NCBI GenBank assembly: GCA_009841255.1
Contig: VXMD01000053.1
Location: 1 to 40,876 of the forward strand
Length of the DNA: 40,876 bases
From: Candidatus Poribacteria bacterium
Lineage (GTDB): Bacteria > Poribacteria > WGA-4E > WGA-3G
Reading direction: 5' to 3'
Below, in pieces: positions 4,424 to 30,327 of this stretch (its first letter is position 1; the number at the start of each line of letters is the position of its first letter). A program made the position numbers and the translations under genes. The notes below the pieces were generated by a model that ran no database searches, was not told where the DNA came from, and was given only the letters and a program-made list of their open reading frames with translations.

Positions 4424-4432
4424 CAAGTTTGC

Positions 4433-4453
4433 AGTTATCAGTTGTCAGTTAAG
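4433..4453 (+). repeat. Heptamer repeat AGTTRTC x2 plus AGTTAAG
   Basis: AGTTATC-AGTTGTC-AGTTAAG stands just before the Shine-Dalgarno of the aldo/keto reductase. Related arrays occur at 7941-7968, 8039-8066 (inverted) and 29060-29087, all ending in TTAAG. Confidence 0.6.
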
Positions 4454-4465
4454 AAGGAGAACAGT

Positions 4466-7940: not shown

Positions 7941-8066
7941 AGTTGTCAGTTATCAGTTATCGGTTAAGAGATGCTTTGTAACAATTTACCTTTCCTGAGC
8001 GGACTCCAAGGAATTGTGAATTGTCACATCAAAATCTCCTTAACTGACAACCGATAACCGATAACT
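7941..8066. repeat. Inverted pair of heptamer repeats
   Basis: Plus strand 7941-7968 is AGTTGTC-AGTTATC-AGTTATC-GGTTAAG. The region 8039-8066 is its inverted counterpart (AGTTATC-GGTTATC-GGTTGTC-AGTTAAG on the minus strand). They bracket 70 unique bases and could form a long stem. This is MITE-like in shape. No gene is seen inside. Confidence 0.65.
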
Positions 8067-21399: not shown

Positions 21400-22137
21400 T
21401 TAAAGTTGGTATTCATAAGCGGCGGCGGCAACGGCTACAATTGCGGCAGTTTCTGTGCGGAGAATGTTCTGTCCAAGTGTCACAAGTGTACATCCACTTT
21501 TAATAGCACTGGTGACCTCCTGATCGGAAAATCCGCCTTCCGGTCCGACAAAGAGGGCGATAGAAGCCGGACGTGGTGTCTCTCGCAGAACCGTTTGGAT
21601 ATGCTGGACCTGCGATTCCTGATCACGATGTGGACTGAGGAGGAGACAAAGCGAAAACCTATCGAGTTGTGCAAGAGAGGCATCAAACGCCTGTGCATTG
21701 CATAATTCAGGCAGCCAGGCGCGTTCAGATTGCTTCGTAGCAGAGATAAGGACACGGTGCCAACGTGCATATCGGTTTTGAGTCGGTTTCTGCAAGGCAT
21801 ATTCTGAATGCAACGGTACAATCTGTGTGATGCCGAGTTCTGTCGTTTTTTGGAGAATTAACTCCATCTTATCGTTTTTGGGGAGTCCTTGAAAGAGCGT
21901 GATTTCCGGTGGGACAGGCGGGAAAAACGCATGACTGCGAATTAGGGCTTCGCTTGACAGTCGATCATCGTGTGTTTCGAGAATTTGTGCGATATACACA
22001 TTCCCGCTTCCATCAATAATTCGGACAGTCTCACCGGGTTTTGTCCGAAGGACATTGCGCAAATGATGCTGCTCCGGACCCGTAATTGTAGCGATATTAT
22101 TGCAAATATGAGAAGGGGAAACATAGAAAGTATGCAA
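21400..22137 (-). CDS. rsmE: 16S rRNA (uracil-1498-N3)-methyltransferase
   Basis: A 245-residue SPOUT-family enzyme. The start is TTG at 22137; its AAGGA site is part of the repeat leader at 22138-22225. PUA-like N-terminal part with GPEQHHLRNVLR, then SPOUT motifs ATKQSERAWLPE, FVGPEGGFSDQE and LGQNILRTETA, which form the knotted SAM site. It methylates U1498 of 16S rRNA. It is followed by argE-like 65 bases later. Confidence 0.93.
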   Translation of the reverse strand: MHTFYVSPSHICNNIATITGPEQHHLRNVLRTKPGETVRIIDGSGNVYIAQILETHDDRLSSEALIRSHAFFPPVPPEITLFQGLPKNDKMELILQKTTELGITQIVPLHSEYALQKPTQNRYARWHRVLISATKQSERAWLPELCNAQAFDASLAQLDRFSLCLLLSPHRDQESQVQHIQTVLRETPRPASIALFVGPEGGFSDQEVTSAIKSGCTLVTLGQNILRTETAAIVAVAAAAYEYQL

Positions 22138-22225
22138 TTTTTTTAAACGTTCCTTGCGGTTCGGTGAGATGCGTTGGTATCATCAAGTCGCTTTCCGTTG
22201 AGCCGTCCCGGCGCGTTGCTTGGGA
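22138..22225 (-). repeat. Repeat leader D, supplies the rsmE ribosome site
   Basis: Minus strand: GTAGTCCCAAGCAACGCG..., then CACCGAACCGCAAGGAACGTTTAAAAAA directly before the TTG of rsmE. It shares the CGAACCGCAAGGAA-TTAAAA end with repeats at 23902, 24978 and 30248. Confidence 0.6.
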
Positions 22226-22900
22226 CTACACACTTGCGTCATAGATTGCGGGAGTGCGCAATTTTTGAATAATCGTCTCCGGTTGCTGACTGCGGAAGAT
22301 AGCCGTCCCTGCAACGAGAATCGTTGCGCCTCGATGAATTGTGAGGGGCGCGATTTCTGTAGTTACACCCCCATCAACAGAGATGTCAAGAGGCTGCGTC
22401 ATTTCCTGAACCTTTTGATGTAATGTTGCTATTTTGTCGAGTGTATTTCGCTGAAAGGGCTGACCGCCGAACCCGGGTTCAACACTCATTGGCAGGACTA
22501 AGTCAATGTCCGAAAGGTAAGGTATAGCCATAGAGACAGGTGTCTTCGGACACAGTGCTAACCCCGGTTTAAGTCCGTGTGCTTTGATCGCTGAAATTAC
22601 TTCGTCCGGTTTATCAGCACTTTCGATATGAAAGGTAATCAGATCTGCGCCTGCCGCTGCCAGCGCATCAATATAACGAAGAGGGTGCGTTACCATAATG
22701 TGGACATCAAAAGGAACATCGGTAATCTCGCGAACGGCAGCAATAAAGGGTGGACTGATAGCGAAATTTGGCACAAACTCACCGTCCATCACATCAAAGT
22801 GGAGCATGTCCGCGCCAGCCGTGACGATCCGTTTAACCTCTTCGCCAAGACGGCTGAAATCTGCGGCGAGTAATGAAGGCGCAATTTTAGGAATAGAAAT
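22226..22900 (-). CDS. rpe: Ribulose-phosphate 3-epimerase, ATT start
   Basis: The first ATG (22807) would remove the conserved beginning KIAPSLLAADFSRLGEE, which is present and in frame upstream. No ATG, GTG or TTG lies there before the stop at 22926. The codon at 22900 is ATT, 7 bases after AAAGGGG, giving 224 residues, the normal length. Metal and catalytic residues: H34 and D36 (LHFDVMDG, with D39), the HIMVTHP segment, SVEPGFGGQPF and VDGGV. It interconverts ribulose- and xylulose-5-phosphate. It starts 23 bases after the PASTA gene stop. Confidence 0.88.
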   Translation of the reverse strand: MSIPKIAPSLLAADFSRLGEEVKRIVTAGADMLHFDVMDGEFVPNFAISPPFIAAVREITDVPFDVHIMVTHPLRYIDALAAAGADLITFHIESADKPDEVISAIKAHGLKPGLALCPKTPVSMAIPYLSDIDLVLPMSVEPGFGGQPFQRNTLDKIATLHQKVQEMTQPLDISVDGGVTTEIAPLTIHRGATILVAGTAIFRSQQPETIIQKLRTPAIYDASV

Positions 22901-22923: not shown

Positions 22924-23901
22924 CTATCTATAAATCACTTCAGGTAATTTTTCACCATTTTCGTAGACGATCACCCGTACTTTTCCAAAAACGCGGACCC
23001 CTTTTTGTTCCAAATCAATCACTGTACCCGGGGCATAGCGTTGATCCACCTCAATACGTTCACTGTAGTCATCAATTATAACAATTCTGACGTGCCGTGA
23101 AAGTTTTCCTTCCTCACTCACCGTATGCGTGAAAGTTAAGGGTCTGCTGATGTTTTCAGTAACGCCCTGTACACCACTGATTTCGAGTAGGATACGGTCT
23201 CCGGTTCTCACCATCGTGCCGCCTACAGGTTCGTGAGTGATAATTGCACCTTGAGGGATCTTAGGGTGTGAACTATATTCAGTCTCAATCTTTAGTCCGA
23301 CTGATTCCAGTACAGCAACCACATTGGCAGCAAGCTGACCTTGGAAATTCGGAAGTTGTACCACTTGCGCTCTCGGTCCGCGACTCACTAACAGATTTAT
23401 GGGGTTGCCGCGACGTTGACCTCCGCCTTCTGGGGGTGTTTGTGCGATGACAGTATCCTGTAGATAATCTTCGGAATAGACGAAGGCAACCCGATTTGGA
23501 CGAAAACCCGCAGTTGCGAGCGATTCAAAAGCTGCATCCCGCGATTTCCCGATGACGGAAGGAACAGGGACTAACTCAGCTCCGATGCTAACTGTGATTT
23601 CAACGGGTTGATACGATTTTATTCTAAAGTTCGCCTCTGGATTCTGTGAAACGATTTCACCCTTGGGCGCATCGCTACTCGCCTCTTGAATGGTTTTTGC
23701 GGGCTGTAGCCCTGCATCCCCAAGAATCCGCACGGCCTCATAGTAGTTTTGACCGATAATGTTGGGAACAAGCACCTCCTCGGTTCTGACCCAACTCGGA
23801 ATAACGACGAAAATGGCCAAGGCTCCAATTATACCGAATACAACTAAGAGATAAAGGAAAGCCTTGAATGACGCAAATAGCGTATTATTCAAACGATTCA
23901 T
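22924..23901 (-). CDS. Membrane-anchored PASTA-domain protein
   Basis: A 325-residue protein with a short cytoplasmic tail, one membrane helix (13-34) and three PASTA units on the outside: VLVPNIIGQNYYEAVRILGDAGL (near 43), VPVPSVIGKSRDAAFESLATAGF (near 111) and VQLPNFQGQLAANVVAVLESVGL (near 181). No kinase domain is joined, unlike PknB. PASTA units bind peptidoglycan or muropeptides, so a wall-sensing or division role is inferred. About 75 C-terminal residues after the third unit are not recognised. The start is ATG with an AAGGA site given by the repeat leader B. It lies between fmt and rpe, where Firmicute-type clusters carry the PASTA kinase. Confidence 0.85.
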   Translation of the reverse strand: MNRLNNTLFASFKAFLYLLVVFGIIGALAIFVVIPSWVRTEEVLVPNIIGQNYYEAVRILGDAGLQPAKTIQEASSDAPKGEIVSQNPEANFRIKSYQPVEITVSIGAELVPVPSVIGKSRDAAFESLATAGFRPNRVAFVYSEDYLQDTVIAQTPPEGGGQRRGNPINLLVSRGPRAQVVQLPNFQGQLAANVVAVLESVGLKIETEYSSHPKIPQGAIITHEPVGGTMVRTGDRILLEISGVQGVTENISRPLTFTHTVSEEGKLSRHVRIVIIDDYSERIEVDQRYAPGTVIDLEQKGVRVFGKVRVIVYENGEKLPEVIYR

Positions 23902-24003
23902 TTTTTAATGATTCCTTGCGGTTCGGTCAAGTTTTTTGTGCGTTGGACGTTTCTTTGCGTATATCCACCTGCGCCTGCTTCGCAGTGAGAATGCAGGCTA
24001 CGG
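23902..24003 (-). repeat. Repeat leader B, supplies the PASTA-gene ribosome site
   Basis: Minus strand: CCGTAGCCTGCATTC...GCAGGCGCAGG..., ending CTTGACCGAACCGCAAGGAATCATTAAAAA directly before ATG. Same family as repeats at 22138, 24978 and 30248. Confidence 0.65.
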
Positions 24004-24038: not shown

Positions 24039-24977
24039 CTAAGAAGTAAAAAACTCGCCTGTTTGCAACTGGTAACCGTTAATAAAATCGCGTGCTTTCA
24101 TAGATTTTTTGGTTGCGGGTTGGATTTCTAACAATTGGAGCGTCCCTTCCGCTGTGGCAACGAGTAGCGTTTGCCCTTTGGTTATTTCAAGGGTTCCGGG
24201 TTGTCCATCAAGTTTCTGTGGCAGCGGTTGACAACGGACAATTTTCAGTCGCAATTTCTCTCGGAAGAACGTATAAGCACCGGGCCAGATTGCTGTGCCT
24301 CTGACTAAATTGTGAATCGTGATCGCGGGCTGATTCCAATCGATTTGCCCGATGTCCTTGGTCAGCCGCGGTGCGTGCGTTGCTTTCGCGTTGTTCTGTG
24401 GAACTGCCGCTGGCGGTCCCCCATCCGGCATATTCGACAGACATTGGATAAGCTGATTCGCACCGAGCTGCGCCAACCGTTCCGTCAATGTGAAAGCAGT
24501 ATCCTCATCTCGGATCGGGACTCGATCTGCTGAGACAATATCGCCTGTATCCTCACCCGCATCCAGTAACATAAGCGTCACACCTGTCTCAGTTTCACCA
24601 TTAATGAGTGCCCACTGAATTGGAGCGGCACCTCGGTACTTTGGAAGAAGAGAGGGATGCAAATTGAGAGTGCCACAGGACGGAATATCTAAAACAGTCT
24701 GGGGTAGAATCTGACCAAAAGCAGCAACGACAACTACATCTGGTGCGAGACCTTTAAGAGTTCGCACAACATCGGGCTTTCTCACCTTCTCAGGCTGATA
24801 GACCGGTATTGTGTGTTCTGTCGCAACGACTTTGACAGGTGATGGGCTGAGCCGTTTCCCGCGCCCGCTCGGTCGGTCGGGTTGTGTGACGACACCGATG
24901 AGTTCCAATTTGTGAGTGATGAGCGCTGTGAGTGCTGGAACAGCAAACTCACTGGTCCCCATAAACAGAATACGCAC
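24039..24977 (-). CDS. fmt: Methionyl-tRNA formyltransferase
   Basis: The start is GTG at 24977, giving MRILFMGTSEFAVPAL, the usual beginning; a longer frame to 25004 runs into the repeat. The product has 312 residues. The formyl-transfer residues N105, H107 and D143 are in NLHPSLLPKYRGAAPIQW and GEDTGDI, matching E. coli N108, H110 and D146. The C-terminal OB-like domain (IHNLVRGTAIWPGAYTF) is present. It formylates initiator Met-tRNA. The ribosome site AAGGA is the terminal motif of the MITE-like element next to it. No def gene is adjacent. Confidence 0.95.
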   Translation of the reverse strand: MRILFMGTSEFAVPALTALITHKLELIGVVTQPDRPSGRGKRLSPSPVKVVATEHTIPVYQPEKVRKPDVVRTLKGLAPDVVVVAAFGQILPQTVLDIPSCGTLNLHPSLLPKYRGAAPIQWALINGETETGVTLMLLDAGEDTGDIVSADRVPIRDEDTAFTLTERLAQLGANQLIQCLSNMPDGGPPAAVPQNNAKATHAPRLTKDIGQIDWNQPAITIHNLVRGTAIWPGAYTFFREKLRLKIVRCQPLPQKLDGQPGTLEITKGQTLLVATAEGTLQLLEIQPATKKSMKARDFINGYQLQTGEFFTS

Positions 24978-25206
24978 TTTTAATCTTTCCTTGCGGAGAA
25001 ACAATCGCAGTTTGGGCTTTAACGTGCCTTTCTCAAACCCGCCTGCGCCGTTGTTGCAGGCTACAAGTTCCGTATTTTGACTACGCTACGCGTTATCGGA
25101 TAAAACAAGTTTTAAACCTGTTAGCACGTAATGGAATGGAGTGCGGATTTAAGAAACACGCCATCGCCTAAATGACTGTTATTTCCCCGCAAGGTATCAT
25201 TAAAAA
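24978..25206. mobile_element. 229-bp MITE-like element with terminal inverted repeats
   Basis: The left end TTTTAATCTTTCCTTGCGG (24978-24996) and the right end CCGCAAGGTATCATTAAAAA (25187-25206) match in inverted orientation at 16 of 19 positions. The interior contains GTAGCCTGCAAC and GGCGCAGGCGGG, shared with the repeats at 23902 and 30248, and has no protein. The left end abuts the fmt start codon and gives its Shine-Dalgarno. The right end overlaps the stop codon of the orphan gene at 25200. Confidence 0.6.
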
Positions 25207-25757
25207 CGAATTTGAAGGAGCGGCAGAGCGAAACCGACAGATTTTTCATTCGCCCACTGACTCAGGCCTCTATTCATCGAGTCCTGTAACGATCGGCTCC
25301 TATATCTCGCTATATACGGACTGGTTTCAGACAACCGCGTAAGCGTCCCCTCCACGGGCTCTTCCTCTTCAGAGGGTAGAGGTGTTTCCGGTTCAGGCAC
25401 AAGGGGTGCTGATCGGTCAACATTACGCGTATGTAACCAATCCCATATCCCAATAAACACAGACAATGAAACAGCACCGATACCAATTATGCGATAGTCT
25501 TGGGGGGACAATTCAGGTGCGAATTGATTTTCACGCAGCATTTTTACAGCGCGCATTACTCCGTAACTGTGAATAGCGGTAAACGGTATGGAACTCAAAG
25601 TAATGATCTCAAACCGTCGCAAAGCACTTTCACTATATTCCGCGTGTTCTGTCTCCGACTCAGAAGATTCAGACTCAACTTGCGCTTTTGCCTGAGGGAT
25701 TATTAAGGAAAGAAAGATTAGGTTAAGTAAGAATAACCGAACACCCAATTTATTCAT
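25200..25757 (-). CDS. Exported membrane protein of unknown function
   Basis: A 185-residue protein. Residues 1-25 are a signal peptide ending PQAKAQ. An acidic Ser/Glu stretch follows. Two hydrophobic segments lie near 48-64 (FEIITLSSIPFTAIHSYGV) and 90-107 (IIGIGAVSLSVFIGIWDWL). A proline/glutamate linker (118-136) leads to a basic tail, and the last residue is phenylalanine (LPLLQIRF), as is common in outer-membrane proteins. I do not recognise the family. It lies between lspA and fmt on the same strand; a GGAAGG-like site precedes the ATG. The stop codon falls within the right end of the MITE-like element. Confidence 0.65.
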   Translation of the reverse strand: MNKLGVRLFLLNLIFLSLIIPQAKAQVESESSESETEHAEYSESALRRFEIITLSSIPFTAIHSYGVMRAVKMLRENQFAPELSPQDYRIIGIGAVSLSVFIGIWDWLHTRNVDRSAPLVPEPETPLPSEEEEPVEGTLTRLSETSPYIARYRSRSLQDSMNRGLSQWANEKSVGFALPLLQIRF

Positions 25758-29059: not shown

Positions 29060-29087
29060 AGTTGTCAGTTACCAGTCGTCAGTTAAG
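29060..29087 (+). repeat. Heptamer repeat array
   Basis: AGTTGTC-AGTTACC-AGTCGTC-AGTTAAG lies 24 bases upstream of the IleRS-like gene start, in the gap before yggT. It belongs with 4433 and 7941-8066. Confidence 0.6.
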
Positions 29088-29147
29088 AGGCTTCCGTTTA
29101 ACAAAACCCACTTATAACTATTAACTTTTTGGCACATTCGCCATCTA

Positions 29148-29440: not shown

Positions 29441-30244
29441 TCAGGTACTACCAAGTTCCTTTGCTCGCGCCGTTGCAGCGAGGATGGCTTCTGTAAGTGT
29501 TGCTCGTAAACCGCCTTGTTCTAAAGCGTGGAGCCCGGCGGCGGTTGTACCGCCCGGTGTGGTCACACGGTTTTTGAGGACAGCCGGATGTTCCTGCGTT
29601 TCAACCAACATTTTAGCGGCCCCGAAGACTGTATAGGAAGCGAGTTTCTGTGCGTCCACCCGAGTTAAACCGACATGGACGCCTGCATCCGCTAACGCTT
29701 CAATGAAGAGTGCGACATAGGCAGGCCCACTTCCACTGACCCCCGTGACAGCATCAAGATGGTGCTCATCCATCACTAAAGAGGTGCCGCAAGCGTTGAA
29801 AATTTGCTGTGATATTTCAAGATGCTCCTGATTCGCTGCACTGCCAGCCGTTAGGACCGAGATTGCAGCACCTACCGAGGCTGATATATTCGGCATCACC
29901 CGAACGATGGGTGGAGCGTTATCGAAGTAGGATTCAAGCGTTGTGGTCGTAACACCGGCGGCGATGCTAATGAGCCATTGCGGTGATGATAAGGCACGCG
30001 CAATCTGTGGCAAGACGTGCGGAACTGCTGGAGGGGTGACAGCACAAAAAATAACCTCAGTATTTTCTACCAAGGTAGCAATATCACTTGCACTGTTAGT
30101 CCCTTTTTCATCACAGAGTTGCTGGACGAGGGTATTATCAAGATCGGTAACCCAAATCTGTTTCGCAGGAAATACCGTGTCAGCAATACTTCGGACGATA
30201 ATGCCGCCCATCTTCCCAACGCCTATTACCCCTAAATTTTTAAT
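29441..30244 (-). CDS. proC: Pyrroline-5-carboxylate reductase, start uncertain
   Basis: The mature sequence starts at IKNLGVIGVGKMGG, with the Rossmann GxGxMG near residues 7-12. Other motifs: VRVMPNISA, VSGSGPAYVALF, TTPGGTTAAGLHALEQGG. The reaction is the last step of proline synthesis. The longest frame begins with GTG at 30310, but its first 22 codons are the dispersed repeat, so it is an unlikely start. No ATG, GTG or TTG stands near the true beginning; the best in-frame codon is ATT at 30244, three bases after AAGGA, which gives 267 residues. TTG at 30265 is another option but has no ribosome site. Confidence 0.88.
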   Translation of the reverse strand: MKNLGVIGVGKMGGIIVRSIADTVFPAKQIWVTDLDNTLVQQLCDEKGTNSASDIATLVENTEVIFCAVTPPAVPHVLPQIARALSSPQWLISIAAGVTTTTLESYFDNAPPIVRVMPNISASVGAAISVLTAGSAANQEHLEISQQIFNACGTSLVMDEHHLDAVTGVSGSGPAYVALFIEALADAGVHVGLTRVDAQKLASYTVFGAAKMLVETQEHPAVLKNRVTTPGGTTAAGLHALEQGGLRATLTEAILAATARAKELGST

Positions 30245-30247
30245 TTT

Positions 30248-30327
30248 TCCTTGCGGTTCGACCAAGTAGGTTTGATAGATGAAGTGTCTCTCCGTAGAAC
30301 CGCCCTCCACTTCGTTACAGGCTACTG
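30248..30327 (-). repeat. Repeat leader A upstream of proC
   Basis: Minus strand: CCAGTAGCCTGTAACGAAGTGGAGGGCGGTTC..., ending TTGGTCGAACCGCAAGGA. It contains GCGGTTC and GAACCGC, which can pair. Same family as 22138, 23902 and 24978. Confidence 0.65.

Follow-up and report, generated by a model that had tools for sequence, protein, structure and literature searches.

Interspersed repeats are a known source of promoters, terminators and the odd stop codon. Palindrome-associated mini-elements derived from IS200/IS605 have a subterminal hairpin and no inverted ends. We know of no repeat family that ends in a ribosome-binding site placed to the single nucleotide before the starts of hundreds of unrelated housekeeping genes. 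In Streptococcus pneumoniae, BOX elements are assembled from boxA, boxB and boxC modules; in the available part of their description (PMC3049150), 36 genes have their extreme 3' end and stop codon within a BOX with no evidence of truncation, the BOX-encoded ORFs that were tested lack good Shine-Dalgarno (SD) candidates, and no precise coupling of an element end to a start codon is described. REPs, including the GTAG-tagged REPs and BIMEs, are palindromes of 20-40 bp without an SD tail (PMC3733652, PMC2817692); Poribacteria are not mentioned in PMC3733652. MITEs such as QMITE1 and QMITE2 of Coxiella (PMC5896051), MITEAba12 (PMC6382973) and the Correia elements are small non-autonomous repeats with terminal inverted repeats and direct repeats, which alter expression signals or gene ends mainly by supplying promoters, the Coxiella QMITEs apparently having no effect on the 5' ends of known genes (PMC5896051).

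The window analysed here is a stretch of 40,876 nucleotides, placed by comparison of fmt in Candidatus Poribacteria, which are sponge symbionts. It carries several copies of a repeat whose units, as aligned, read 5' to 3' as [G/A]TAG, a hairpin, a body of about 45 nt that exists in several types, and the tail CCGCAAGGNNNNATTAAAA. Like BOX, the unit is a short modular interspersed repeat, and the stop-codon habit of BOX is very like the antisense stops found here, the two being compared by description only. With GTAG-tagged REPs and BIMEs it shares GTAG followed by a covarying palindromic hairpin, an extragenic location, hundreds of copies and head-to-head pairs, whereas it is longer than a REP, possesses an SD tail and lacks the association of RAYT-linked REPs with Y1 genes, which here do not lie next to units or follow them in number. 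Small size and altered expression signals or gene ends recall the MITEs, but terminal inverted repeats, expected on each copy of a MITE, are absent from single units. Finally, the subterminal hairpin and lack of inverted ends are shared with the IS200/IS605-derived mini-elements, from which the unit differs in that only one hairpin is supported and that, among the Y1_Tnp genes, no IS with matching ends was found. The best reading is that of a new kind of interspersed repeat, REP- and BOX-like, set apart from BOX by description.

The repeat unit and its copies

A sequence-only reading had described positions 24978-25206 as a single inserted 229-bp MITE with terminal inverted repeats. The two 19-mers on which it relied are indeed present, CCGCAAGGAAAGATTAAAA on the minus strand at 24978-24996 and CCGCAAGGTATCATTAAAA on the plus strand at 25187-25205, inverted and identical at 16 of 19 positions. 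Nearly all of the ~50 genome matches to the 229-bp query nevertheless cover query positions 1-87 only, at 75-89% identity, and no other copy spans 229 bp. The extent of these matches sets the unit boundary at ~87 bp, and units of ~86-110 bp are one-sided, with the GTAG-hairpin at one end and ATTAAAA at the other. The apparent inverted repeat arises because two units lie head to head with their tails outwards. What survives of the claim is a repeat that is dispersed and non-coding and for which relatives show empty sites; the single MITE gives way to two units in opposite orientation, of which relatives hold either alone or neither.

Unit 1 (24978..25064, minus strand, type A) consists of a GTAG-GCCTGC...GCAGGC hairpin, a body and the tail CCGCAAGGAAAGATTAAAA with AAGGA, which ends at the fmt start codon; about 40 further stretches of the same genome match it at 75-89% identity. 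Unit 2 (25121..25206, plus strand) aligns with type A units, carries the GCAC/GTGC hairpin variant and overlaps with its tail, CCGCAAGGTATCATTAAAA, the stop of the gene at 25200-25757. Three type B units lie elsewhere in the window, all on the minus strand. The first of these (23903..24001) has a longer hairpin and a tail immediately before the ATG (23901) of a PASTA-domain-like protein gene (22924-23901); its site holds a full unit in L117 and L119, the tail only in L120, a tandem tail in L143 and no unit in sister clades. The next (22141..22228, hairpin GTCC/GGAC) precedes the start of the RsmE-like gene at 21400-22137, which begins with TTG here and with ATG in relative G085. The last (30238..30325) is fused in frame to proC (...YLVEPQGKIKNLGVIGVGKMG), whose own GTG start is lost. 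With at most one mismatch, the tail pattern CCGCAAGGNNNNATNAAAA occurs five times in the window and not once in 100 shuffles.

The 3' end of the units is fixed (CCGCAAGG NNNN ATTAAAA(A)) while the body is variable. At the 5' end, the 4-bp hairpin stem covaries (GCCT/AGGC, GCCC/GGGC, GTCC/GGAC, GCGC/GCGC, GCAC/GTGC), both sides of one pair being changed in 19 of 39 and 15 of 33 sequences of two alignments in which additional hairpin pairs also vary in step. No conserved pairing was found in the unit body in the alignments, and whole units fold no more stably than shuffled ones (z -0.5 and -0.9). By eye, a long paired stem seemed to precede the SD immediately (GCGGA..UCCGC); the alignments, in which covariation is confined to the 5' hairpin, do not support it. 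Known structured RNAs (Rfam) gave no match in the window at the gathering threshold, and six unit loci had none either at E 0.1. Conservation that might indicate a promoter inside the left end of the unit is weak, reaching about -20.

Tandem units and tandem 21-bp tails occur at L005, L012, L044 and L080, so that two consecutive SDs precede a single ATG, and runs of N lie inside the tandem arrays of L021 and L080. Further hairpin families (GTAGTAGGCACACTCCGTGTGCCGTAAC-like, GTAGGGACTGAATAATCCAGCCCCTAC-like and GGGTTTTTGCTTGGGTGTTTC) crowd the intergenic regions of G085 and of the window's own genome and interrupt or extend units (e.g., pair R>O 105). Another dispersed repeat, AGTTGTCAGTTATCAGTTATCGGTTAAGAG, lies at window positions 4426-4456, 7941-7970, 8036-8066 and 29060-29089, and also in intergenic regions of relatives, fmt leaders included.

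A search for further copies and for empty sites had been proposed as a check on mobility. The exact pattern CCGCAAGGNNNNATNAAAA occurs 376 times in the 5.73-Mb genome (the reversed control pattern 0 times) and the fmt site is empty in L143; the sequence is thus neither confined to this place nor without empty sites in relatives. Among 85 Poribacteria genomes, the tail is essentially limited to the genus of the window, beyond which a neighbouring genus has six and a few others have one match each. Counts within the genus range from 0 to 376, the repeat having expanded in one clade, and the highest (about 200-376) belong to the species closest to the window in ProC sequence. Neither phages nor plasmids gave a match to the repeat, and carriage by either was set aside; 2.9 million viral contigs yielded 16 isolated matches to the pattern, which are taken as chance. 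In the literature searched, which left many subscription papers outside its scope, a repeat of this type is not described for Poribacteria.

Tails at the borders of genes

The border statistics draw on 1.24 Mb from the window's own genome and 1.2 Mb from that of relative G085, roughly one fifth in either case, with start codons predicted from open reading frames. The 231 tails in these 2.4 Mb comprise 109 before a start codon, 22 in-frame fusions and 33 that provide an antisense stop TAA; about a quarter lie at no recognised gene border. In the 1.24 Mb of the own genome, a start codon opening at least 80 codons lies 0-6 nt downstream of 68 of 146 tails; the same holds for 5.6% of random and 2-11% of shifted positions, and for 1 of the 146 tails when read the other way. 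An ATG follows ATTA at exactly 4 nt in 70 of the 231 tails from both genomes (chance per position 0.0023), and the tail TAA is the exact stop of 33 opposite-strand frames that are 90 codons or longer, where every other position accounts for 0-4. The 3' end of the repeat is therefore found at borders of predicted open reading frames far more precisely than chance would place it. Proteins with an antisense stop typically end in ...F* from TTT TAA and, in most comparable cases, within about one residue of their orthologues.

Tails lead 9.0% (own genome) and 6.9% (G085) of genes of at least 150 aa. An SD 4-mer precedes 91-98% of tail-led genes in the two genomes and 49-53% of other genes, against a background of 11-13%, and the 16S 3' end GGCTGGATCACCTCCTT is canonical. 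The SD motif is observed at suitable spacing and probably serves as a ribosome site.

The fmt gene (24039..24977, minus strand) illustrates this situation. Its GTG (CAC at 24975-24977 on the plus strand) stands directly after the tail, CCGCAAGGAAAGATTAAAA stopping at this codon and containing AAGGA as the sequence-only reading had noticed, while unit-free relatives start with ATG. Orthologues of fmt were compared at about 50 Poribacteria loci. Of the two units, L118 and L120 carry just the one that ends at fmt, L119 carries just the inverted one at the stop of the neighbour, and L143 carries neither; in outer species the fmt leaders are short and plain. An SD 4-mer at -20..-4 is present in 1 of 31 unit-free orthologues (background 2) and in 3 of 3 unit-bearing ones, namely two orthologues and the window copy, which argues that the repeat supplied fmt with an SD otherwise missing, in line with the proposal that the element provides its ribosome site. 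The companion proposal, that the element donates a stop codon to the gene between fmt and lspA (25200..25757, minus strand, C-terminus ...LLQIRF*), fared differently. The TTT TAA of this gene does lie inside the tail of unit 2, CCGCAAGGTATCATTAAAA including TTA, the complement of that TAA, but relatives lacking the unit end the gene at this very codon (CGTTTCTAA vs CGTTTTTAA; TTC TAA there, TTT TAA here), and the stop was thus overwritten in place rather than gained. As an arrangement, a tail on the stop of a converging gene does recur in the family (33 cases).

In the 22 fused cases, the tail frame CCG CAA GGN NNN ATT AAA (PQGxIK) reads into the downstream gene. Unit-free species begin proC with GTG GTA GAA GAC CTT CGA TTA, whereas unit-bearing species read ...ATT AAA AAC CTT CGA with the protein sequence PQGxIKN(L), several of them having an in-unit ATG from the body (MSETYLNEPQGIIKN...). 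In trpB, ATG CAA CAA CTC has become ATT AAA AAA CTC behind an in-unit ATG. The unit replaces the first six codons of era (ATG GAC GAA AAT CAA AGT) in three species (L288, L289, L290), and in two of these, the own genome and G083 (L288, L289), no in-frame ATG, GTG or TTG was found between the upstream stop and TTC AAA TCC GGG. Initiation of era would then take place inside the unit, perhaps at AUU. Annotation is affected because, in these genomes, the predicted starts of proC, trpB and era, as well as short N-terminal extensions, derive from the repeat. AUU starts are very rare among bacteria. In rpe (window 22226-22890, minus strand; L117-L169), the start in this genus appears to be ATT, the codon found in 25 of 38 loci, and in most an SD of the AAGGAG type stands some 7 nt before it; the equivalent codon is ATG in outgroups L147, L150 and L151.

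Orthologous sites also differ between species. Twenty tail-led genes have an orthologue in the 1.2 Mb of G085, of which 10 are filled and 10 empty there. Upstream of rpe, L118 has a unit and L120 only CTCCCTTAAAGGAGATTAC, which suggests that the insertion in L118 is recent relative to L120. In this one fairly clean pair, compared between species, no target duplication is visible and an A-rich microhomology, TTAAA, lies at the right junction. Filled and empty pairs are seldom clean insertions; replacement via recombination among copies is possible because the native leader is usually missing too. In filled pairs the tail often keeps its place while body and hairpin differ between species, and tail-only sites exist (the PASTA gene of L120 and proC of L269). 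At the level of sequence comparison, the genomes show hundreds of copies in one clade, with orthologous sites that hold a unit in one species and lack it in another.

Origin and spread of the repeat

We consider that the stretch beside fmt holds, head to head, two copies of a short, dispersed and one-sided repeat that spread in a mobile-type fashion and was exapted as a portable translation-initiation leader, with a probability of roughly 0.8. The filled and empty sites are what suggests mobility of the unit. We propose that the unit would have spread as a non-autonomous mobile element, its A-rich 3' end joining A-rich sequence at gene borders. Copies landing at start codons would have been retained as ribosome sites through pairing of AAGG(A), which lies some 12 nt before the ATG, with the anti-SD CCUCCUU of 16S rRNA; copies fused in frame would supply the first codons of the protein, and antisense copies would form the TAA of a converging gene. 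After landing, the tail would be kept while hairpin and body are exchanged or lost.

The most probable alternative, although we regard it as unlikely, is an immobile, regulon-like regulatory 5' leader whose copies evolve where they stand and are kept alike by gene conversion. The conserved tail position in front of bodies that differ between species would agree with it, as would the high precision at start codons and the hairpin covariation. Such a leader would not be expected at stops in antisense (33 cases), away from gene borders (a quarter of tails) or in tandem arrays, nor to vary from 0 to 376 copies inside one genus with empty sites common; moreover, the genes downstream of tails (fmt, proC, trpB, era, rsmE, the PASTA protein) have no common function. 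Gene conversion among copies is itself a serious alternative to mobile spread, or a partner of it.

Somewhat less likely again is a REP/BIME family moved by a Y1 transposase (RAYT/TnpA-REP). Y1 proteins are encoded in the genome, and the GTAG followed by a covarying hairpin, extragenic position, high copy number and head-to-head pairs are those of such families. However, no units flank the six Y1 genes, no transposase with matching ends was found among the Y1_Tnp genes, and Y1 and tail numbers are uncorrelated across 38 genomes (207 tails and 0 Y1 in G077, 15 tails and 12 Y1 in G082). The conserved part of the unit is, besides, precisely the SD tail that the shorter REPs do not have.

Insertions within genes are purged, and survivors are therefore intergenic. 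A neutral hitchhiker, with a coincidental AAGG in its tail and border copies that are simply those spared by selection, would also end up between genes, a reading that we consider improbable. Purging covers intergenic placement but neither the single ATG spacing shared by 70 of 231 tails nor the 33 at one stop position, and downstream intergenic positions would do just as little harm. The single 229-bp MITE inserted between two genes, which has the inverted 19-mers and the 229 bp between their outer limits in its favour, is very hard to maintain against ~87-bp genome copies without inverted ends and relatives (L118, L119, L120) that carry one arm alone.

A stronger form of the exapted dispersed repeat is a mobile translation-initiation cassette that brings its own SD, in some copies its own start and first codons (perhaps AUU in era) and, inserted backwards, a stop, that prefers open reading frame borders, and that has taken over initiation in roughly a tenth of the genome. 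This remains a tentative proposal, for which we would give slightly less than even odds. In either form, a mobile-looking repeat apparently became a genome-wide supplier of translation signals, standing at the starts of roughly one gene in twelve. If true, a selfish or homogenising sequence would here have rewired translation initiation across a whole genome in nature, and the related species, with 0-376 copies and many filled and empty gene pairs, would constitute a ready experiment on the evolution of initiation strength.
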